30,496 bases of DNA from a virus: the IMG/VR virus record IMGVR_UViG_3300003690_000144, positions 1-30,496 of that record. One strand, 5' to 3'. This document shows positions 5,438-30,496 of this stretch, piece after piece. A model generated the notes under the pieces. It saw only the letters and a program-made list of their open reading frames with translations. It had not been told where the DNA came from and did not search any database. Numbering within the stretch: the stretch's first letter is position 1; each line of letters opens with the position of its first letter. The position numbers and the translations under genes are program-made.

Positions 5438-8007
5438 TAGCTAACTCTCTTATAAATTGGTCTATATTCAATGGATATATCATTGAAAAATATCTTATTA
5501 CTCGTGGTTGTAAATGTAAGTGTTGTATTATTATTTGTAGCTGTCGCAGTAGCAGAAAGCTCGAATTCCGTATCGCTTGTAATTGATGCGACGGTAGCAC
5601 CCTCAGGAATGCCAGTTCCACTAACAGACATACCAGCTTTAATATCTCCCTTATCATCAAGATGAGTCACTGTTGCGTCACTACTTGAAGTATCACATGA
5701 AGAATCTGTAAATGATGCCACATTTGGGTCTAGCTTAAAGCGAATACTCTGACACTCTTTTGGAGAAGAAAAAGAATGGACAGCTACATCCCACTTTGAC
5801 TGCTCAGACCATGTGCCAGTCAAGCCAGTATTGCTAAACAATGTATTACCATCTATAGCCCAATACATATCATCGGTAAGAGTACCAGCCTCAGGCTTTC
5901 TATATGTCGTATAAACATTATATATCTTCTTAATACGCCCGACATCCCCAAAATCAATATCTTTTGTTGCGATTTCAATATTAGCCACTTCAGACGAATT
6001 ATTACCATACTTAACTACAGTGCCAGTACCTGATGTGTGTGCACAAACTAAATCCTTATTGTAGTCTATGATAAAATTAGTTTGAATTTGGTCGTCTGTA
6101 AATATAGCATCACCATATATCCACGATTTAGTTCTAACATCATAAATATATACATCACCATCACTAGAGGAAGAACTGTCTCTTAGAACAACAATCTGCT
6201 TATCTTTGGGAAGATACCCAACCATAGAACTGTCCGTTATGAATTCGCTCCAAGTCTCATTGTATAAACCCAAATTTGCTTTCGTATCAGAATCCCTAAT
6301 TTTTCCATCAATTAAATTTACTATATTGCTACCATCAAAAAGATAACATCCACTCTCATTAATCCACACTATTCCAAATTCAGTCTTGAATACCGCCGAT
6401 GGTAGCTTAACGCCCATATATTTATGGGTAGCCTCAAGAAACCAGTTGCTTGGCGATGGAGAAGAAATATTAATAATAAACAATGTACGTTGCTTAAATG
6501 CAAAAAGCCTATCAGCATACTCCTCCAGTTTAACATATTCCTCTGCATCCCCCCTTACAACATCAATAAAATAACTGCGCGGGAAAGTATCAAATCTATT
6601 AGCAGGAGAATACATAATCCTATCACCCATATGAATTACTTCACCAAATTTATCCTTTGTTCTAACATTAGCAACAAACACACGCCTATTAGCAACTACA
6701 ACGCTCTTATATCCTTCGCCAGCACCACTAATAGAAATAGATGCCTCATCATTAGAAAATCCATTTAGTATCTCATATGTTTCAATATTTGGAGATGCAC
6801 TCATAATTGTATTTGAATAAACTTCGGTATTGTCACTACCGCGAGTCCAAGCCGTATAATCACTATCAAGTTTAGCTCTCACACCATCTCGCATACTTAT
6901 ATCAAGCAACAGCGTCCAAGGCTCATCAGTACTATCTTCCCTTGCATATATTCTTGCACCGCTTATTCTTTCGTCAAATCCAGGTGTTGCCCTAACGTCC
7001 AAATCAAGTTTATCTCCATCATCAGGCGAAAATGTATTATTAGATGTAGGCACATACAATAAAGACTCCTGTGCGTCATCGTAGATAAAACTACTCGCAA
7101 TTTGATAAGTTTTATCTGACCAGTCACCGCCGGTGGTCGCATCATCTACTGTAATTTGAAATCCTGTGCCGGCACTTGGATATGCGCTAGCATGAATTAC
7201 AAGTTCTGTTGGTGCATCCAATGTATTAGTATTTTCAAACCACCCTGTATACGTATCCTTTGCAAGTCCGGAGCCGTTAAAATGAGTACGCTTTACATAC
7301 CCATACCATTTTGTTCTATTAAGGTCCCCGAAATTACCGTCTGACACTCTTAATGCCTCATCTACAAAATAAAACACACCCTCTACACCAGACGATCCAC
7401 CATCGCCGGAAACAGATTCCATATTAATAACAGTTGCAGTCCATGAATCACCTGTTTTATCGTATAAATCAACCGCCGCATTCGTGGCATCAACCATTGC
7501 AAGCCAATCTTCACCGTCATCACGAACACCAGTAATAACAACATTAGCAGTTGAAGACTCATCTGTAAACTCAGCCTTTTGTGTAATGGTAAGTTTAGTA
7601 GCCGCTACAGTTCCAACGGTGAAAAATCCATTGTTACCAGCATTATTAGCCGCAGAAATAGAAATCACCATGCCAACAAGAAAGCCATCTGATGTAAAGC
7701 TACCTGACGCCCTTGATACAGAACTAAATGCAGGGTCAGCATCATTAAATGTTGCTGTTATAGTGCCGGTAGTAATATCCTTCTTATGGTCTGATGCAAA
7801 ATAAAATAGCCCATGCCCGGCAGTAAGTGCTGCCGCATTAGCAGGAATATCTCCGTGCGTTACCTCAGCACCAATACTTCTTATCGCACCATCTTGATCG
7901 CACATAATATTTTGACAGCCAGAAAGCTCGTCATTGCCAATGTCCCTAGGGTCTTTATATGTATTAATCCCACGAAAGGAGTTAAGTGTTAGCATCTGCT
8001 TAGGCAA
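5437..8007 (-). CDS. Large tail nozzle/propeller-like virion protein, about 856 aa
   Basis: The N-terminus (SFRGINTYKDPRDIGNDELS, then a short CQNI...GAIRSIG segment) is the typical opening of phage tail-nozzle or tail-tubular proteins, in which a Gly-Ile-Asn segment precedes listed tail contacts. Residues about 400-640 have repeated aromatic/Gly blade-like strands (ANRRVFVANV, RLFAFKQRTLFII, GCYLFDGSNIV) consistent with a beta-propeller. Two small beta modules are embedded: one near residues 85-155 and one near residues 760-830 (GMSVSGTGIPEGATV), both common add-ons in phage tail proteins. The start is a TTG at 8007 with GAAGGAG nine bases upstream; an ATG at 7995 lacks a site at useful distance. 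It overlaps the end of the lysis peptidase frame by eight bases. The nozzle role is inference from fold-like features and podovirus context. Confidence 0.72.
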   Translation of the reverse strand: MPKQMLTLNSFRGINTYKDPRDIGNDELSGCQNIMCDQDGAIRSIGAEVTHGDIPANAAALTAGHGLFYFASDHKKDITTGTITATFNDADPAFSSVSRASGSFTSDGFLVGMVISISAANNAGNNGFFTVGTVAATKLTITQKAEFTDESSTANVVITGVRDDGEDWLAMVDATNAAVDLYDKTGDSWTATVINMESVSGDGGSSGVEGVFYFVDEALRVSDGNFGDLNRTKWYGYVKRTHFNGSGLAKDTYTGWFENTNTLDAPTELVIHASAYPSAGTGFQITVDDATTGGDWSDKTYQIASSFIYDDAQESLLYVPTSNNTFSPDDGDKLDLDVRATPGFDERISGARIYAREDSTDEPWTLLLDISMRDGVRAKLDSDYTAWTRGSDNTEVYSNTIMSASPNIETYEILNGFSNDEASISISGAGEGYKSVVVANRRVFVANVRTKDKFGEVIHMGDRIMYSPANRFDTFPRSYFIDVVRGDAEEYVKLEEYADRLFAFKQRTLFIINISSPSPSNWFLEATHKYMGVKLPSAVFKTEFGIVWINESGCYLFDGSNIVNLIDGKIRDSDTKANLGLYNETWSEFITDSSMVGYLPKDKQIVVLRDSSSSSDGDVYIYDVRTKSWIYGDAIFTDDQIQTNFIIDYNKDLVCAHTSGTGTVVKYGNNSSEVANIEIATKDIDFGDVGRIKKIYNVYTTYRKPEAGTLTDDMYWAIDGNTLFSNTGLTGTWSEQSKWDVAVHSFSSPKECQSIRFKLDPNVASFTDSSCDTSSSDATVTHLDDKGDIKAGMSVSGTGIPEGATVASITSDTEFELSATATATNNNTTLTFTTTSNKIFFNDISIEYRPIYKRVS

Positions 8008-21861: not shown

Positions 21862-23415
21862 TTAATACCTAGCTCCAGTAAGCCAATTATAGCGTCTTTT
21901 AGTCTTACCAGCACCTTTTCTGGCATGTGAGGAAAATTCTTCCTCCTTCATTCTGTTGCTTCGTGGTGGCTTGGCATGATAGTTAGCGCAATACAATGCA
22001 TCCATAATATCATCATGTTTTGATCTTGGATGTTCGAAAAATTCATTAGTCAACTCAGTCATAGTATGCTTAGTATGTAGCTTCTTAGAGTTTACTATCC
22101 AGCCCAATGCTGTCTCAAGCCTATCTTCCTTTGATATCCTCGTTGGGTGCTTAATGCCCTTCATAATGCCAGGTACAAGCTTTCTATCCTTGGCTGCAAG
22201 CCTCTCTGCCATATCTCTAACTATCTCCTGTGCCGCTACAGTTTCAATAGTGACACGCCTTACTGGACTATACTTTTTTGCCATTTCAACAATCTTAGGT
22301 GCCAAGTCAAATGCTGGTATCTTTTCCCTGAAATAGTCTATTACATAGCGATTACGCTCAGAGTCTATGCCCATTACGATTATGACCTGGTAGTCTGAAG
22401 ATGATGTAGCAGTAGCTGCAATGTCTACACCCAAATAGACATAAATTGGTACAACCTCGCTGCCAATATGAAGATAGGCAAAGCCATTTTCGGAAACAAA
22501 ATCACCGTGATATTTTTGAATTCTATCAATCTTAAATGAGGCAGAGGATATATCACGGGCATCGTTCATATACTCCTGTGCAAACTTGTCAGGACTGTCC
22601 CTAAACTCACCCTCAAGCTTTGACCTTAGCTTTTTAATCGGGAACTGCTCAGGCCACAACGGCTCACTATCGAGGGTGCCATCAATCGTAGCCCTATAGA
22701 AAGCTACATCCCAAGGGTTATTTAGACATTTCTCCTGTGACTCACGCCAACCGTCATAGATAGACTGCAAGAAACTGTCATAGTGCACAATTGTGCCCTG
22801 TAACCATATCCAGCCTTCTCTCCCTGGTGTCTCCTCAAGGGCGGGGTAAATAGTAGACATTACCCATTTCTTAATCTCTGAGCGCCTATCAGGTGTTTTA
22901 GTATTCAACTCAGATTCAAAGTCATCAAGTACAATGCCAGTATAACGGACATCAACCTCAGTACGACCTCTCAGTCTCTGTGTCGTGCCTTTAGCAATAA
23001 TTCTGTCGCCTTTAGATGTAACAATATCTTTCTCAGTCCACTTCTCACCAAGCAAATCACCAAAGTAATGGCGTATAGCCTGATTCATTTCCAGGTGATA
23101 TTTAATATATTTAAGATGGTCAATCGACTGTCCCTGTTCTTCACTGACCCATGCTATAAACTCACGCCTACCGCTCTCAGCAAAGCATATCTTATGCAGT
23201 ATTGCAGCCTTTGCCAGTGTAGACTTAGCAAATCCACGAGGGAGAATATTACATATCCTGGCACCTGGCTTAAAACTAATAAGCTTTTTAGCTATCTCAT
23301 GATGAAACGCTGGCGTTTCGCTCTTATGTAAGAAATCATTAGGCAAAAAGACCCGCCCAAAGTAAATCAAGTCTTTATAAGCACGATGAAGTATCTCTTC
23401 TTTGTTATCTGTCAC
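21862..23415 (-). CDS. Terminase large subunit, 517 aa
   Basis: ATPase domain: Walker A LPRGFAKST (residues 58-66), Walker B IVLDDFE (161-167). Nuclease domain: VYLGVDIAATATSSSDYQ with D331, a TIETVAAQEIV segment with E391, and HDDIMDALY with D468/D469/D472 as metal ligands. These make the two-domain motor that packages and cuts the DNA. The start is a GTG at 23415 with GAG about five bases upstream; no closer ATG preserves the N-terminal helix. It lies one gene group away from the small subunit (24120-24875). Confidence 0.92.
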   Translation of the reverse strand: MTDNKEEILHRAYKDLIYFGRVFLPNDFLHKSETPAFHHEIAKKLISFKPGARICNILPRGFAKSTLAKAAILHKICFAESGRREFIAWVSEEQGQSIDHLKYIKYHLEMNQAIRHYFGDLLGEKWTEKDIVTSKGDRIIAKGTTQRLRGRTEVDVRYTGIVLDDFESELNTKTPDRRSEIKKWVMSTIYPALEETPGREGWIWLQGTIVHYDSFLQSIYDGWRESQEKCLNNPWDVAFYRATIDGTLDSEPLWPEQFPIKKLRSKLEGEFRDSPDKFAQEYMNDARDISSASFKIDRIQKYHGDFVSENGFAYLHIGSEVVPIYVYLGVDIAATATSSSDYQVIIVMGIDSERNRYVIDYFREKIPAFDLAPKIVEMAKKYSPVRRVTIETVAAQEIVRDMAERLAAKDRKLVPGIMKGIKHPTRISKEDRLETALGWIVNSKKLHTKHTMTELTNEFFEHPRSKHDDIMDALYCANYHAKPPRSNRMKEEEFSSHARKGAGKTKRRYNWLTGARY

Positions 23416-25986: not shown

Positions 25987-26317
25987 TGTAGTCCTCTATC
26001 ATCTGCACTGTTAATGCGTAGCCAGCAATATCTATAAGATTATCCCGCTTGTGCTCATTGCACTCACGACTAAGCTTTACACCGATCATGCAGAGCCCAA
26101 CCTGCTGCGGTGAAACCTCCGTATCTAAGATTGAAGCCCATATTTTAGCACTTCTTGAGAAATCAATGATTGGATGACCATAATTATTGCCCCTATCACC
26201 CCCAACAAGGGCCTGAGCCTCCTCAAGTATTGAGTTTTCAACACTTTCCACAATTTCAAACTTGATTTTTCCCATTTCTCCATTTTTAGTCGAAAAATAT
26301 TTAGATTCTGTAGTCAT
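25967..26317 (-). CDS. DUF6378-like phage protein, 116 aa
   Basis: ATG at 26317 overlaps the upstream TGA (ATGA). The sequence ILEEAQALVGGDRGNNYGHP, then IWASILDTEVSPQQ, then LCMIGVKLSRECNEHKRDN and IDIAGYALT matches the DUF6378 pattern (ERG..YGHP, K.sRe...KrDN.iDiaGYa). This family is common in phages and related in outline to MazG-like nucleotide hydrolases, with acidic residues in two helices. A nucleotide-pool role is plausible but unproven. A longer reading from 26359 would overlap the neighbour by 46 bases and is less likely. Confidence 0.75.
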   Translation of the reverse strand: MTTESKYFSTKNGEMGKIKFEIVESVENSILEEAQALVGGDRGNNYGHPIIDFSRSAKIWASILDTEVSPQQVGLCMIGVKLSRECNEHKRDNLIDIAGYALTVQMIEDYNDKSKK

Positions 26318-26526
26318 GCGAAAGCACCAGGTAAAACTATGTTGTTGAAGTAAGTGCACTCACCAGCAAAACACGGTTTTTTATAATAATATTCGTCAAT
26401 CCACATAATCAGTCTTCCATCTTCATCACGTCTCATCATTACGCCGCCACACAAGCCACGATTGGGGCCACGCCCAAAATTAGCACAATTTTTAGAGGCA
26501 ATCCTAATTTCATTCTTGTCAACCAC
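26314..26526 (-). CDS. First gene of the leftward early operon, Cys-rich, 70 aa
   Basis: The frame begins at a GTG (26526) and ends in an ATGA joint with the DUF6378-like gene. Four Cys (residues 14, 26, 52, 57) could form a metal site; the sequence contains the segment KPCFAGECTYFNN. The promoter -10 lies only about seven bases upstream, so the message may be leaderless. Function unknown. Confidence 0.62.
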   Translation of the reverse strand: MVDKNEIRIASKNCANFGRGPNRGLCGGVMMRRDEDGRLIMWIDEYYYKKPCFAGECTYFNNIVLPGAFA

Positions 26527-26532
26527 AAAACA

Positions 26533-26561
26533 AATTTACACAATTAAAACGCGAAAGTCAA
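26533..26561 (-). promoter_or_regulatory. Sigma-70 promoter for the leftward early operon
   Basis: Minus-strand TTGACT (26556-26561) and TAAATT (26533-26538) are 17 bases apart. The block from the -35 upstream (GTCAAGGATTATTTTA on the plus strand, 26557-26572) is identical to that of the promoter before the portal gene, and a T-tract TTTTTTCA lies at the same distance. Transcription should start near 26526. Confidence 0.75.
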
Positions 26562-26719
26562 GGATTATTTTAAAAACCCTGAAAAAAGTTTCCATTCCCC
26601 CTTAATAATCCCCCTATAATGTATAAGTTAGTTATAATCTTAATCTTAATCAAGGAAAGTTGAAAGAAATAGAGCGAAATAGCAAAATAGGGTTACGATG
26701 TGTGCGTACGATCCACTCT

Positions 26720-26743
26720 CCCCGCTACTCGGGGGGGCTTTTT
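26720..26743 (+). terminator. Candidate rho-independent terminator in the divergent interval
   Basis: CCCCG (26720-26724) pairs with CGGGG (26730-26734) across a five-base loop, followed after GGGC by five T (26739-26743). It would stop any short rightward transcript begun near 26640. The extra GGGC between stem and T tract weakens the call. Confidence 0.4.
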
Positions 26744-26913
26744 CGCCTTTGCTCAGATTTCGTTAGAAAGCATAATGACGAAACGAAAGCGAGCCCTTGC
26801 GCAATCGAGCCCGCCCAGTGGGGGCGTACAAACTGCGCATATAGCAGTCTGTCGAATTGTGTTGCGATTGTCATATTTATTTAATATATTGATTTAATTC
26901 AGTTTATAGATCT

Positions 26914-26956
26914 TTGACAATTAGAATACAAGCTTTTACTTGCAATGGGCAAGTAA
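26914..26956 (+). promoter_or_regulatory. Candidate rightward promoter with overlapping operator-like dyad
   Basis: TTGACA (26914-26919) is a perfect -35. No good -10 lies 16-18 bases later; TTTACT (26935-26940) is the best at 15. An eight-base perfect inverted repeat, TTACTTGC (26936-26943) with GCAAGTAA (26949-26956), covers that -10 position. A repressor or activator bound there could control the rightward operon, starting at 26985. Confidence 0.45.
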
Positions 26957-26984
26957 TTGACTAACTAAATGAGAGGGCGAAATA

Positions 26985-27365
26985 ATGACAACTAAATCAC
27001 AGAGTAAGGGCGACACAAAGCCCACAATCAAAGCTAAAGCGTCAAGCTTGCGGGCTGATGAACTACTTAACATACAAACAAAGCTCGTTATTGACGGGCT
27101 TGTCAGTGCAGGCGTTTCAAGGGCTAAAGCTGAAGCCCAAGCAATCGAGATTCAAGAGACTGCTAAATCAGAAGCGCAGACAAAGGGCGTTGTAGCGGGC
27201 TTCTCTCGGGGCTCTAAACATACGGGCTCATTCGTTGATGCGCTTAGGGTTGATATCACTGCAATAATGAGCAAACATACGAATGAAGCGGGCTTGATTG
27301 AGACAGACGGCGGGCTTAAAAAGCTGGGCTTCTGGGCTAAGTTCACAGAGCCCGATACTAAGTAG
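26985..27365 (+). CDS. First rightward gene, unknown soluble protein, 126 aa
   Basis: ATG at 26985 has GAGAGG eight bases upstream. The protein starts with a Lys/Ser/Thr-rich segment (TTKSQSKGDTKPTIKAK) and is helical in the middle (SRAKAEAQAIEIQETAKSEA). No domain is recognised. It lies directly after the candidate promoter and is closed by a terminator, so it may be made at high level early in infection. The coding strand has 12 GGGC tetranucleotides in 381 bases, far more than expected by chance. Confidence 0.65.
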   Translation: MTTKSQSKGDTKPTIKAKASSLRADELLNIQTKLVIDGLVSAGVSRAKAEAQAIEIQETAKSEAQTKGVVAGFSRGSKHTGSFVDALRVDITAIMSKHTNEAGLIETDGGLKKLGFWAKFTEPDTK

Positions 27366-27380
27366 TTAAATAGATTCACG

Positions 27381-27412
27381 GGCGGGCGCAATCCCGCCTA
27401 AAATTTTGTTTT
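27381..27412 (+). terminator. Rho-independent terminator after the first rightward gene
   Basis: GGCGGG (27381-27386) pairs perfectly with CCCGCC (27393-27398), loop CGCAAT, followed by TAAAATTTTGTTTT. It lies 15 bases after the stop codon. It probably limits read-through to the next gene, giving stepwise expression. Confidence 0.7.
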
Positions 27413-27447
27413 AATTGGCATACACTTCAAGGGAATAAATTAGGGCA

Positions 27448-27846
27448 ATGATTAAGATAACAATATCAAAGAAGGGCAGAATATACGCCATCGACATAGT
27501 TGATGGGCAGGAAGAGTCTGCCCTTTTTTTTACTAAACGAAATCTATTTGAGAAGGCTATTAAAAATTACGCCTGCAAATGCGCAGGGCGTGGCGAATAC
27601 GTTGTAGTGGTTGATGAAATTAAGGGTACAACTATGCGGACAAGTAAGGGGGCAGTTAAAGTTAAAGATAGAGATTGCCCCTCAGTTCCCAAGTACCCTC
27701 GCTATCGTTCCAATAAATTAGAAACCATCGAGCTTTCGCAAGGGCAGAGAAATCGTAGGGCTCTTAGAGTCCAAGTGAGCAAGTATGACGCTGGCAAGAT
27801 TTCTATTGGCGAGTTAGTCAGAAAAGGGTTAGCCATTTATGGTTAA
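27448..27846 (+). CDS. Hypothetical basic protein, 132 aa
   Basis: The N-terminal half is beta-rich (MIKITISKKGRIYAIDIVDG), with the pair CKC at residues 43-45; the C-terminal half is basic and helical (RNRRALRVQVSKYDAGK, then IGELVRKGLAIYG), which resembles the helices of small DNA-binding proteins. AGGG lies close to the ATG. No certain domain. An early regulatory or DNA-binding role is conceivable. Confidence 0.62.
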   Translation: MIKITISKKGRIYAIDIVDGQEESALFFTKRNLFEKAIKNYACKCAGRGEYVVVVDEIKGTTMRTSKGAVKVKDRDCPSVPKYPRYRSNKLETIELSQGQRNRRALRVQVSKYDAGKISIGELVRKGLAIYG

Positions 27847-27982
27847 AGACAGACAGATGGATAATGTGAATGTAGAAGATATTATGTTGGAAGATGAAAT
27901 GTTGGTATATGAACGGGAGCACGTCTGTCGCCATGATTTAAGTATGGCGGAAGAATGCGCTAAATGTAATGTGGAAAAATAA
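27839..27982 (+). CDS. Small acidic protein with CxxH...CxxC, 47 aa
   Basis: The ATG overlaps the previous gene by eight bases. The protein is acidic (EDIMLEDEMLVYEREH) and ends with CRHDLSMAEECAKCNVEK, where C32, H34, C43 and C46 could bind one zinc. It is followed 11 bases later by a gene with a strong ribosome site. Short but compact, so I think it is real. Function unknown. Confidence 0.6.
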   Translation: MVKDRQMDNVNVEDIMLEDEMLVYEREHVCRHDLSMAEECAKCNVEK

Positions 27983-27993
27983 GGGGAATAACA

Positions 27994-28233
27994 ATGAAAG
28001 GGCTATACGAACATTTGGTTAATTCTGTGCCAAATAATAGGCTCACCCGCTACTTGGTTGGCAAGTTTAATCAGCGGATGAGAAGAGATGGCAGTCGTTA
28101 CAGATTGCACATAAGATACAGGGGCTTAATAGATGGGCGGGGCTATCGCAATGATTTTGGCGATATTTATTGCCAAGATGCACGCCGCTTTTCACTTTAC
28201 TTACGGAGAAGAAATACTGTTGGTAATTTTTAA
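27994..28233 (+). CDS. Small basic hypothetical protein, 79 aa
   Basis: AGGGG seven bases before the ATG supports the start. The protein is Arg/Tyr rich (KFNQRMRRDGSRYRLHIRYR, then RRFSLYLRRRN), with an IRYRGLIDGRGYRNDFGDIY segment that looks beta-stranded. High positive charge suggests nucleic-acid binding. Family not recognised. Confidence 0.6.
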   Translation: MKGLYEHLVNSVPNNRLTRYLVGKFNQRMRRDGSRYRLHIRYRGLIDGRGYRNDFGDIYCQDARRFSLYLRRRNTVGNF

Positions 28234-28252
28234 TGATGAGGAGGAGTGAATA

Positions 28253-28351
28253 ATGGAAGCGGCAATAATAATATCAGGGGGCTATCTACTATTGATAGCC
28301 TACGCATTTGTTTTGTTTATGTGGGTACAACAGGTAATAGATGAGGATTAG
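28253..28351 (+). CDS. Single-pass membrane miniprotein, 32 aa
   Basis: GAGGAG six bases before the ATG is a very strong ribosome site. Residues 4-25 (AIIISGGYLLLIAYAFVLFM) are one membrane helix; the C-terminus is acidic (QQVIDED). It overlaps the next gene by 11 bases. Such miniproteins often modulate host membranes or superinfection, but the role here is unknown. Confidence 0.6.
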   Translation: MEAAIIISGGYLLLIAYAFVLFMWVQQVIDED

Positions 28352-28802
28352 AAATACTTGCCTGGTGCAACTTCATAGGGCACGTGCATTGACTGGCAGG
28401 CAGTTTTCACATAATATAGCCTTCAATAGGTGTGAGCCAGCCAATAGCAAGAAAACTATTTGGAATGTTACATTGAAGGTAAGAGATTCAAGCGGGCCTG
28501 GGCATAGGCTTGGGTGTCAGATTAAGAAGGATGGCACACGCAGGAACTTAAGCAGTGCCTGTTGGCACGCCCATGGTGTATTTATGTATGAATTACTTAA
28601 GATTAATGGTGATACGGTTATATATTCCCGTGGCAGTAGAATTGATAAAGATATTGGTAATTGGCTGACATGGCAAGTTGGCTTTCACAGTGGCAAGCCA
28701 TTGTATATTGGCTCACTATGTTATTGTCGTGGTGAATACATTTATGCCGATGCCAAGCAGGGTCCTGTGCTAAGTATTAAAAACATAAGGGAGTTAAAAT
28801 GA
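28341..28802 (+). CDS. Hypothetical phage protein with ACWHAH motif, 153 aa
   Basis: The sequence NLSSACWHAHGVFMYELLKI (residues about 69-88) resembles a Cys-Trp-His-x-His motif seen in short phage proteins of unknown function. The remainder is beta-stranded (TIWNVTLKVRDSSGPG, GNWLTWQVGFHSGK, LYIGSLCYC). The His/Cys set could coordinate a metal. ATGA joins it to the next gene. Confidence 0.62.
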   Translation: MRIRNTCLVQLHRARALTGRQFSHNIAFNRCEPANSKKTIWNVTLKVRDSSGPGHRLGCQIKKDGTRRNLSSACWHAHGVFMYELLKINGDTVIYSRGSRIDKDIGNWLTWQVGFHSGKPLYIGSLCYCRGEYIYADAKQGPVLSIKNIRELK

Positions 28803-28975
28803 ATGAGCTAGAAAAGGATCAATCTGTAAAGGAATGCCAGTATCCACGCTGTGCTAGAAATTCTAGGCGTTGGATAACTTACATTACCCCTAAGGGTGAG
28901 CCATTTCACGCTAAGTTATGTAAGCCACACTATACTGAGACTGATGGTATTATTGGAAAGAGTGGTAGGTTGTAA
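28799..28975 (+). CDS. Small Cys/His-rich protein, 58 aa
   Basis: ATG overlaps the previous TGA. C13 and C18 (KECQYPRCARN) with C41 and H44 (KLCKPHY) suggest one zinc site. The protein is basic. It is one of a row of small Cys-rich genes. Function unknown. Confidence 0.62.
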   Translation: MNELEKDQSVKECQYPRCARNSRRWITYITPKGEPFHAKLCKPHYTETDGIIGKSGRL

Positions 28976-28977
28976 CA

Positions 28978-29178
28978 ATGAAGGCTAGAAACGAAATAGA
29001 AGTAAAAGTTTTGCCTAAGTGCAGTCTTTGTTTTGATGGCACCAAAGCACACTATGACGCCAGGACTCTGTTCGGTTCTTGGGCTTACCTTTGTAATAAT
29101 CATTTTGTATTGCATAGGGGCAAGCTTGGCGTTGGCTATGGTCAGGAGTTTATTGTTAAAAAGAGAGGTAAGAATTGA
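28978..29178 (+). CDS. Small zinc-binding phage protein, 66 aa
   Basis: The pattern CSLC (residues 15-18), then AHYDARTLFGSWAYLC and NNHF, then LGVGYGQEF is one I associate with a common family of short phage proteins: CxxC, AxYDAxTxxGxWAYLC, hF, LGxGxGQ. Four ligands (three Cys, one His) should bind zinc. Role unknown; the family is frequent in early regions of phages. Confidence 0.72.
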   Translation: MKARNEIEVKVLPKCSLCFDGTKAHYDARTLFGSWAYLCNNHFVLHRGKLGVGYGQEFIVKKRGKN

Positions 29179-29192
29179 TAGAAGGAGAAAAA

Positions 29193-29420
29193 ATGAAGAT
29201 ACTTAAAAATAGCACTACAGGTGAGGAAAGACCACTTATTAGATGTGGTATTACCCGTTGTAATAAAGTGATTCATATTGGTGATGAAATGGGATATAAT
29301 AAAAACTATGATGTATTCTGTAAGGATTGTAGCAATGATTTGTTCGTTACTCGTGGTGAAGTTGATGATGATTGGATTAGTGGTGATATTGGATGGGAAG
29401 AAATAGAGGAGGAAAAATAA
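29193..29420 (+). CDS. Small acidic zinc-ribbon-like protein, 75 aa
   Basis: Starts at ATG 29193 with GGAG about six bases upstream; an in-frame TTG at 29175 lacks a site. Cys at IRCGITRCN and CKDC (two pairs, about 20 residues apart) fit a zinc ribbon. The C-terminus is strongly acidic (EVDDDWISGDIGWEEIEEEK). Acidic short phage proteins sometimes mimic DNA or bind host enzymes; here there is no direct evidence. TAATG joins it to the next gene. Confidence 0.66.
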   Translation: MKILKNSTTGEERPLIRCGITRCNKVIHIGDEMGYNKNYDVFCKDCSNDLFVTRGEVDDDWISGDIGWEEIEEEK

Positions 29421-29566
29421 TGAACGGAATAACACTTGCCGTTATCGTTATACTGACACTGTTATGTGGATATCTTAAAGTAAGGCTTGATGATATGTCC
29501 GATAAGCGTGATAACTGGCGTCAGACTGCAATGGAATTAAACAGAAAGGTTATGGAATTAAATTAA
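29420..29566 (+). CDS. Single-pass membrane miniprotein, 48 aa
   Basis: Residues 3-18 (ITLAVIVILTLLCGYL) are a membrane helix, followed by a charged helix with periodic Leu/Met (DNWRQTAMELNRKVMELN). Translation is coupled by TAATG. The ORF ends just before a 187-base non-coding stretch with strong secondary structure. Function unknown. Confidence 0.6.
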   Translation: MNGITLAVIVILTLLCGYLKVRLDDMSDKRDNWRQTAMELNRKVMELN

Positions 29567-29574
29567 AATTGGAT

Positions 29575-29731
29575 GGCGGGCTTTCTAATGTGATGCCCTT
29601 TCTACCCCATACCTTGCGAATGGAGAGTCCGCCTTCATCATTAAATGGAAAGAAATAGAATGAACAGGTCAGAGTTGGCGGTAAGAAAGTGGGATACGGC
29701 AAGCCAAAGGACTCCACTTCACCTGTTCTAA
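29575..29731 (+). ncRNA. Structured intergenic element with possible pseudoknot
   Basis: Two folds are visible in 29567-29753. Fold 1: 29575-29585 pairs with 29623-29633 over 11 bp (two G-U), loop 37 bases. Fold 2: GAACAGGT (29662-29669) pairs perfectly with ACCTGTTC (29721-29728); inside, TTGGC (29675-29679) can pair with GCCAA (29703-29707) and AAGTGG (29687-29692) with CCACTT (29714-29719), which interleave as an H-type pseudoknot. A 28-codon frame (29645-29731, ATG also at 29660) overlaps fold 2, so a mini-protein is an alternative. A cis-acting RNA or small RNA is my preferred reading. Confidence 0.45.
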
Positions 29732-29753
29732 ATTATGGAAAAGGAGCTGTATA

Positions 29754-30113
29754 ATGCAAACAACTGAAAAGACCCTTGAAAATATAACATCGGCAACTGA
29801 AGATGTGGCAAGCAGGGTTTTGGGTGATGAGACAGTAATGATGCCTCTGTTTAGCGCCGCTTGCTGCCTTGCCAATGTGATTTGCAGGATAAACCCAAAG
29901 AAATTATATAAACATATGGACAAGGAAGGCATAGACTGTGAATATGATGAATATATTTCAGGTATAGGCGATTCCATTGGGGTAATAAAGGCTATACAGG
30001 AAGTAATACTTGAAATAACAAGTGATAGACTTGGTACTGGTCTCGATTCTACCGGTCTTTGTGATATGGTATCAAAGCTTCTTGAAATACAGAAGATGGT
30101 CGAAATAAAGTAG
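29754..30113 (+). CDS. Hypothetical helical protein, 119 aa
   Basis: AGGAG eight bases before the ATG supports the start. The protein is helical throughout (TSATEDVASRVLGDETVM, VSKLLEIQKMVEIK), with CC and two further Cys in the middle (FSAACCLANVICR). No motif recognised. It is the first gene after the structured interval. Confidence 0.6.
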   Translation: MQTTEKTLENITSATEDVASRVLGDETVMMPLFSAACCLANVICRINPKKLYKHMDKEGIDCEYDEYISGIGDSIGVIKAIQEVILEITSDRLGTGLDSTGLCDMVSKLLEIQKMVEIK

Positions 30114-30122
30114 GAGATTAAA

Positions 30123-30496
30123 ATGACGAAAAGCGAAGATAGGTATAGGCTTGTTAACAATGTTGTTGGTGAGTTGCGGGACTTGGTTGATTCACACGAA
30201 CCTGCAGTTTGCCGTGTAAGCCATGATACCCTTTTGAAGTCCTACCACGTGGACAGTGAACGTCCAACAATAGCTGTACGTCAGTGGAAGGCGTGGAAAA
30301 GGCTGTACATACATGCCAGCGTAGTTTCAGATTATATTATTTTTAGGCTACGAGATGATGCGCCGATGGACAGTTGGTTTAACGGTAGAAATGACGTGCC
30401 TGACAAACCTGAAAAAGAGAAAGAAGTAGGTTTCAAGGGTGAGTTCAAGGAAGACCCATCTTACTTCAAGTTTCCTCCTGAAACCTCAATAATAGA
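30123..30496 (+). CDS. Partial hypothetical protein, runs off the right edge
   Basis: AGGAG seven bases before ATG 30123. At least 124 residues with no stop. The N-terminal 80 are helical with Trp/Tyr clusters (RQWKAWKRLYIHASVVSDYI), followed by a charged low-complexity segment (DKPEKEKEVGFKGEF). Family not recognised. Confidence 0.6.
   Translation, partial: MTKSEDRYRLVNNVVGELRDLVDSHEPAVCRVSHDTLLKSYHVDSERPTIAVRQWKAWKRLYIHASVVSDYIIFRLRDDAPMDSWFNGRNDVPDKPEKEKEVGFKGEFKEDPSYFKFPPETSII

Follow-up and report, generated by a model that had tools for sequence, protein, structure and literature searches.

A plus-strand hairpin in the single untranslated gap of a phage operon stretch: a possible mRNA processing or stability point

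Introduction

The locus described here raises a simple question: why should a stretch of a viral operon, in which genes otherwise follow each other almost without interruption, contain one gap of 187 nt, and does the RNA of this gap have a structure of any consequence? The sequence under study (the window, i.e., the whole stretch of DNA that was analysed) is a virus record of 30,496 bases (IMGVR_UViG_3300003690_000144), a fragment from an uncultured bacterial virus. The left 26 kb of the window consist of minus-strand genes, and a terminase of the phrog_38 kind is located on the minus strand at 21862-23415. From 26985 on, there is an operon on the plus strand. In an initial annotation, the gap, lying in an otherwise gapless operon, had been read as structured RNA containing a long helix and a potential H-type pseudoknot.

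The gap and its neighbours

The gap was confirmed at 29567-29753, between ORF 29420-29566 and ORF 29754-30113. The spacings between called genes across 28341-30494 are, in order, -4, 2, 14, -1, 187 and 9 nt, so the 187-nt gap is the sole real gap in that region. Thus, the description of the operon as otherwise gapless holds for 28341-30494, where the other spacings range from -4 to 14 nt. Earlier in the operon there are three gaps, of 82, 147 and 107 nt, in two of which a short open frame (27839-27982 and 28253-28351, respectively) fills the space. The features that frame the gap are:

29420-29566, plus strand: upstream ORF of 48 amino acids (from the ORF call)
29741-29746, plus strand: AAGGAG ribosome site of ORF 29754-30113 (from reading of the sequence and prediction of accessibility)
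29754-30113, plus strand: downstream ORF of 119 amino acids (subjected to family searches)

The protein encoded by ORF 29754-30113 matched no family in PHROGs, Pfam, PADLOC or NCBIfam. Structure models of two downstream proteins were unusable, with mean pLDDT of 43.7 and 35.1. Further upstream in the operon, at 28978-29178 on the plus strand, there is a 66-amino-acid protein that matches phrog_23287 (E 5.5e-15) and has relatives by tblastn in 22 phage records, mostly phages of Arthrobacter, Gordonia and Streptomyces.

One strong helix, on the transcribed strand

The helix reported as 11 bp in length is present and is in fact longer, comprising 13 contiguous pairs (10 Watson-Crick pairs and three G-U pairs), 29575-29587 with 29621-29633. 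It begins a few bases past the stop codon of ORF 29420-29566, and its loop is 33 nt, or 20 nt if a weak inner stem is formed. The elements of this hairpin are:

29570-29573, plus strand: 5′ side of a weak outer 4-bp extension of the hairpin, paired with 29634-29637 in the minimum-free-energy fold
29575-29587, plus strand: 5′ arm of the main 13-bp helix (pairing check; ensemble pairing probability 0.80-0.92)
29589-29618, plus strand: interior of the hairpin in the fold, with a weak 5-bp stem (29589-29593 with 29614-29618) and a 20-nt loop ending in CAUACC
29621-29633, plus strand: 3′ arm of the main 13-bp helix (pairing check)

The stack energy of the main helix is -26.4 kcal/mol, compared with a mean of -14.6 (sd 2.5) for shuffles of the spacer, and only one of 2000 dinucleotide shuffles of the spacer contained a helix of equal stability. 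If only length is considered and G-U pairs are allowed, 13-bp helices arise in 21 of the 2000. Among all 2488 helices of at least 7 bp and a span of at most 75 on both strands of the window, this helix ranks first by stability; similarly, when the window was divided into 326 tiles of 187 nt (both strands), the best helix was the one in the tile of the spacer. When 75-nt windows were ranked by minimum free energy corrected for G+C, the region of the helix came no higher than the top 2% (86 of 4058 windows had an energy that low). The helix is statistically solid, yet it is an ordinary kind of hairpin. What is unusual about it is its location, in the sole untranslated gap, and its strand.

The helix favours the plus strand, which is the direction of the operon, because its three G-U pairs turn into A-C on the minus strand. 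With boundaries that were set after the fold had been seen, the local fold around the helix has a z of -2.35 on the plus strand (9 of 500 shuffles as good) and -0.47 on the minus strand (155 of 500).

The second most stable helix (-23.3) lies elsewhere, at 27468-27529 on the plus strand, inside ORF 27448-27846 and near its start. This segment includes a terminator-like hairpin (27505-27523) with eight T after it. This helix could be either an attenuator or an indication that the gene start of ORF 27448-27846 has been wrongly set.

The idea that there is more structure here than in a random short spacer is borne out by the main helix (the 1 in 2000 shuffles given above) but fails for the fold of the entire spacer, which has a z of +0.83, with 163 of 200 shuffles folding at least as well. 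Accordingly, the term "structured RNA with a long helix" is appropriate for the first 70 nt of the spacer but not for the spacer as a whole.

A possible intercistronic processing or stability point

The best explanation for these observations, although one to be held tentatively, is by analogy with phage T7: the hairpin in the gap may be an intercistronic point of mRNA processing or mRNA stability. What has been established directly is that the helix exists, on which strand it forms and how rare it is within the spacer; the function is argued from the analogy. The gap would be an untranslated intercistronic stretch of a plus-strand polycistronic mRNA, presumably with transcription running through it. 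The hairpin would act on its own mRNA, as a double-stranded landmark that is cut by the RNase III of the host or a similar nuclease; alternatively, it might block 3′-to-5′ exonucleases after a cut. The genes on either side of the hairpin would thereby decay at different rates, and the remainder of the gap, from about 29645 to 29753, would simply serve ORF 29754-30113 as its ordinary leader. A real hairpin of this kind would mean that, in an uncultured phage clade, mRNA is controlled differentially at this position within the operon.

In T7, R1.1 at nt 5887 is described as a mapped RNase III cut that matures and protects the T7 mRNAs (PMC8708148). From the gene coordinates, this position falls in a gap of 184 nt (5823-6006). 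The early region of T7 has six untranslated stretches (five intergenic gaps and the leader of gene 0.3), five of which hold a helix of 9-13 bp with an energy of -16.3 to -22.7 kcal/mol. For E. coli, operons are described in which RNase III cuts between the genes and stabilising hairpins are left behind (PMC5371410). The hairpin in the window resembles R1.1 and its kin in having a strong helix (13 bp, compared with 9-13 bp in T7), and in carrying it on the transcribed strand of an early operon, in a gap that is untranslated and 187 nt long (184 nt for R1.1). A hairpin of the RNase III type is expected to have a stable stem, to lie in an untranslated gap within an operon and to form on the transcribed strand, and these are the properties observed here; the decisive trait of the type would be RNase III-dependent cleavage in or beside the stem. 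It differs from the T7 hairpins in its larger loop (33 or 20 nt) and in being known from its sequence alone, and no sequence kinship to T7 is claimed.

Relatives of the phage, and the gap as leftover DNA

The main rival to a processing or stability point, itself rather unlikely, is that the gap is leftover or junction DNA, produced when a gene was lost or a module was joined; the hairpin would then have no function and be just a remnant, passive or due to chance. Several observations are consistent with this. The G+C content of the spacer is 44%, higher than in the flanking genes (36% and 39%); its overall fold is not superior to those of its shuffles; and when the entire window was shuffled, five of 20 shuffles contained, somewhere, a helix no weaker than the main helix.

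The variability of the plus-strand arm points the same way. The search for terminase relatives found 163, and 80 of these were retained; a comparison with 50,697 phage records gave none at 60% identity or more. At around 26650 the nearest relatives become less similar, with identity going from 97-99% down to 86-90%, which implies that the plus-strand arm varies. This drop, noted for the region of about 26647-27502 of the window, is a possible recombination boundary ahead of the plus-strand operon. The nearest terminase relatives (L002, L003 and L042) stop before window position 27510. Of the right-arm proteins, 26985 is present in L003 and L042, and the start of 27448 in L003. Protein 29420 gave five weak 17-residue matches in relatives (E 0.017-0.044), and there were no other matches to right-arm proteins in the remaining kept relatives.

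Against a remnant stand the single spacer shuffle in 2000 that reached the stability of the helix, the formation of the helix on the transcribed strand, and the finding that nucleotide and protein searches gave no gene match for the spacer or its small frames. In particular, blastn of the spacer against phages and plasmids returned just matches of 20-34 nt, the best with E of 0.05 and 0.6.

Homologues of the gap itself would be the most informative comparison, and searches for them in viral and genome contigs, phages and plasmids found none. In viral contigs, no relative was found with the proteins 29754, 30123 and 27448, or with the four concatenated proteins of 28799-29566, as queries. Three patterns drawn from the spacer matched 10, 10 and 7 stretches of viral contigs, none of which had the flanking arms (judged by eye) or a neighbouring protein (by tblastn). 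Scans of genome contigs returned no relative of protein 28341 and no match to a stem pattern. The protein scan requires exact stretches of eight residues and near-identical records may be missing from the collections, so this absence of homologues is weak evidence. Covariance models of the two halves of the spacer matched the window alone among 81 sources, with a helix model in which one of the 13 pairs was misplaced; with the corrected helix model, both halves matched nothing in 24 whole records, a set without a positive control.

The proposed pseudoknot and the downstream ribosome site

In the second half of the spacer, the initial annotation had proposed an H-type pseudoknot enclosed by a perfect stem. 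The segment concerned is:

29662-29728, plus strand: domain 2, with an 8-bp stem enclosing the proposed pseudoknot (pairings present; as a fold, no better than chance)

All of the pairings on which the proposal was based do exist. The 8-bp perfect stem is formed by 29662-29669 with 29721-29728, and the interleaved arms are 29675-29679 with 29703-29707 (5 bp) and 29687-29692 with 29714-29719 (6 bp). If these were to fold as proposed, the spacer would be a cis-regulatory leader in which the pseudoknot controls the translation of ORF 29754-30113. It would then resemble the leader RNAs with H-type pseudoknots (e.g. pseudoknotted riboswitches), in which interleaved pairings lie upstream of a ribosome site.

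The presence of all arms speaks for such a leader, as does the rarity of their exact combination: among 2000 shuffles of the spacer, the 8-bp stem occurred in 240 and interleaved pairs of 5 and 6 bp in 970, whereas the full nested combination occurred in one. In the window, it is found at one place among 27 8-bp stems. When only the 51 nt of the interior were shuffled, interleaved pairs arose in 19 of 5000. However, the definition of this combination is post hoc, as it was drawn from the sequence of the spacer itself, and interleaved 5- and 6-bp pairs are common in stretches of 72 nt (130 of 2000 shuffles and 99 of 1217 real windows). Nor is domain 2 unusually stable: alone, it has a z of about -1 (79 of 500 shuffles as good).

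The pseudoknot itself found little support when nested alternatives were considered. In an ensemble restricted to nested structures, its stems are minority pairings (probabilities of 0.33-0.36 for the 8-bp stem, 0.07-0.16 for the 5-bp stem and 0.23-0.47 for the 6-bp stem). The best nested fold of domain 2 has a predicted energy of -17.5 kcal/mol, compared with -13.1 or -12.5 for the enclosing stem together with either one of the pseudoknot stems. Together, the shuffles and the predicted nested alternatives appear to remove most of the reason for believing in the pseudoknot. The case shows how little, a single helix, may be left of an impressive single-sequence fold when it is compared with shuffles and with nested alternatives.

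Regulation of ORF 29754-30113 by the spacer was similarly not supported by prediction. The predicted openness of the ribosome site barely differs with and without the spacer (0.39 and 0.38, respectively); it is 0.49 with 47 more upstream bases, and 0.45 (sd 0.22) when the upstream part is shuffled (n=200). The spacer differs from leaders with an H-type pseudoknot in that it has no match in Rfam at the gathering cut-offs, prefers a nested fold and has no clear effect on how accessible the ribosome site is, and a cis-regulatory leader of this kind is very improbable.

A comparison can also be made with the RNAs of type III toxin-antitoxin systems (the ToxI kind), in which, as here, a possible pseudoknot lies ahead of a small gene. 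Unlike those RNAs, the gap has no tandem repeats (no arrays in 29400-29800) and no terminator-like site, and the downstream protein matches none of the families searched. An antitoxin RNA of type III was therefore rejected.

Small open frames

Two small open frames lie in the spacer, one of which had been named at the outset as an alternative that, if conserved at 23-28 codons in homologues that have lost the pairings, would speak against a structured RNA:

29660-29731, plus strand: open frame of 23 codons, or 28 codons from 29645 (codon usage unlike that of the genes of the phage)

This frame is open, and by eye there is a GGAAAG a few bases ahead of the ATG at 29660, as might be expected of a tiny gene or a leader peptide. 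Its codon usage argues against that role. The frame scores -0.23 bits per codon. Of 322 coding stretches of the same length (which were also the training set), 0.3% have a score that low, and of 422 open frames that are non-coding, 55% have one that high. A PHROG search gave no match, and the single tblastn match in phages had an E of 9. For the second small frame (29569-29658), 1.2% of coding stretches score as low and 50% of non-coding frames as high. Both of these micro-ORFs have codon usage that is non-coding-like; a conserved frame is disfavoured, and a tiny gene or leader peptide at 29645/29660-29731 is extremely improbable.

Could the gap encode a free RNA?

A gap that is non-coding-like and has one strong hairpin could give rise to a small free RNA, released from the operon or made beside it, that acts in trans. 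This is improbable. No promoter-like site was found on the plus strand within the gap, which left the earlier suggestion of a free RNA unsupported, and none of the six terminator-like sites in 26300-30496 falls in the gap, so that an intrinsic terminator, expected to be a G+C hairpin with a short loop and a trailing run of T, was also rejected as an explanation for the hairpin. An antisense action on the mRNAs of the phage itself was rejected, as the longest perfect complement to phage transcripts is 12 nt, a length equalled in 48 of 200 shuffles. A search of the whole window against Rfam gave no family at the gathering cut-offs; below these there were four matches, the best with an E of 0.44.

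A repeat-based origin or a promoter shared with other gaps was also considered and rejected: the repeats are unremarkable, and the best match of a 20-mer to other gaps has four mismatches (16 of 60 shuffles equal or better).

A motif shared with hairpins of relatives

The remaining alternative to an intercistronic processing or stability point begins with the loop of the main hairpin. Perhaps the hairpin is a copy of a small, undescribed family of leader hairpins specific to this phage clade, in which the loop of a strong stem (7-13 bp) carries the motif AUACCU 6-7 nt ahead of the 3′ arm; its members would be located in the leaders and gaps of operons. A protein of the phage or of the host would bind the hairpin and thereby control the elongation of the transcript or the fate of the mRNA. 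Both the existence of such a family, as proposed, and the membership of the window hairpin are quite improbable.

The window, L024/L025, L008 and L021 all have the motif 6-7 nt ahead of the 3′ arm, and on reading, none of these four places falls within the main genes. AUACCU occurs 619 times, four of them in helices of -18 or lower; permuted 6-mers occur 21652 times, 36 of them in such helices (L024 and L025 count here as a single sequence that was found twice). Of the distinct hairpins with a large loop and a helix energy of -22 or better, three of 31 carry AUACCU at this distance from the 3′ arm. Against this, the choice of the 6-mer followed a comparison of the window with L021 and L024, the fourth case (L008) having come up in a scan for the 6-mer. 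In a look-elsewhere test with shuffled loops, some 6-mer reached the same count in 683 of 1000 at a cut-off of -20, and in 42 of 1000 at -22 (where the count is three). At -16, the motif is in four of 605 hairpins, and 57 classes of 6-mer and offset reach at least four. The sharing of AUACCU is thus within chance at the -20 cut-off and borderline at the stricter -22. In addition, the sequences align poorly outside the motif, and eight further segments of five relatives yielded no clear member.

Considered in their own right, the hairpins in L024/L025 and L021 are strong leader hairpins of a small cysteine-rich gene (L024:3397-3504, L025:999-1061 and L021:3140-3217, all on the minus strand). 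They have stems of 13 and 7 bp, respectively, and z of -5.58 and -3.57, and none of 200 shuffles folded as well. By eye, a terminator-like hairpin and a TTGACA-like box precede them, and they share the tail AAAATTTAAT..CACG..GGAG. A search of L021 and L024 against Rfam gave no match. These hairpins are a candidate leader-RNA family of the phage clade and, as a lead to a new RNA family, a better one than the spacer of the window.

The hairpin in L008 (770-840, plus strand) is G+C-rich, has a CAUACCU loop and lies in a long non-coding region between divergent genes, with a z of -1.73. It is built from an inner stem of GGAUC with GAUCC, an AA bulge and an outer helix of 9 bp.
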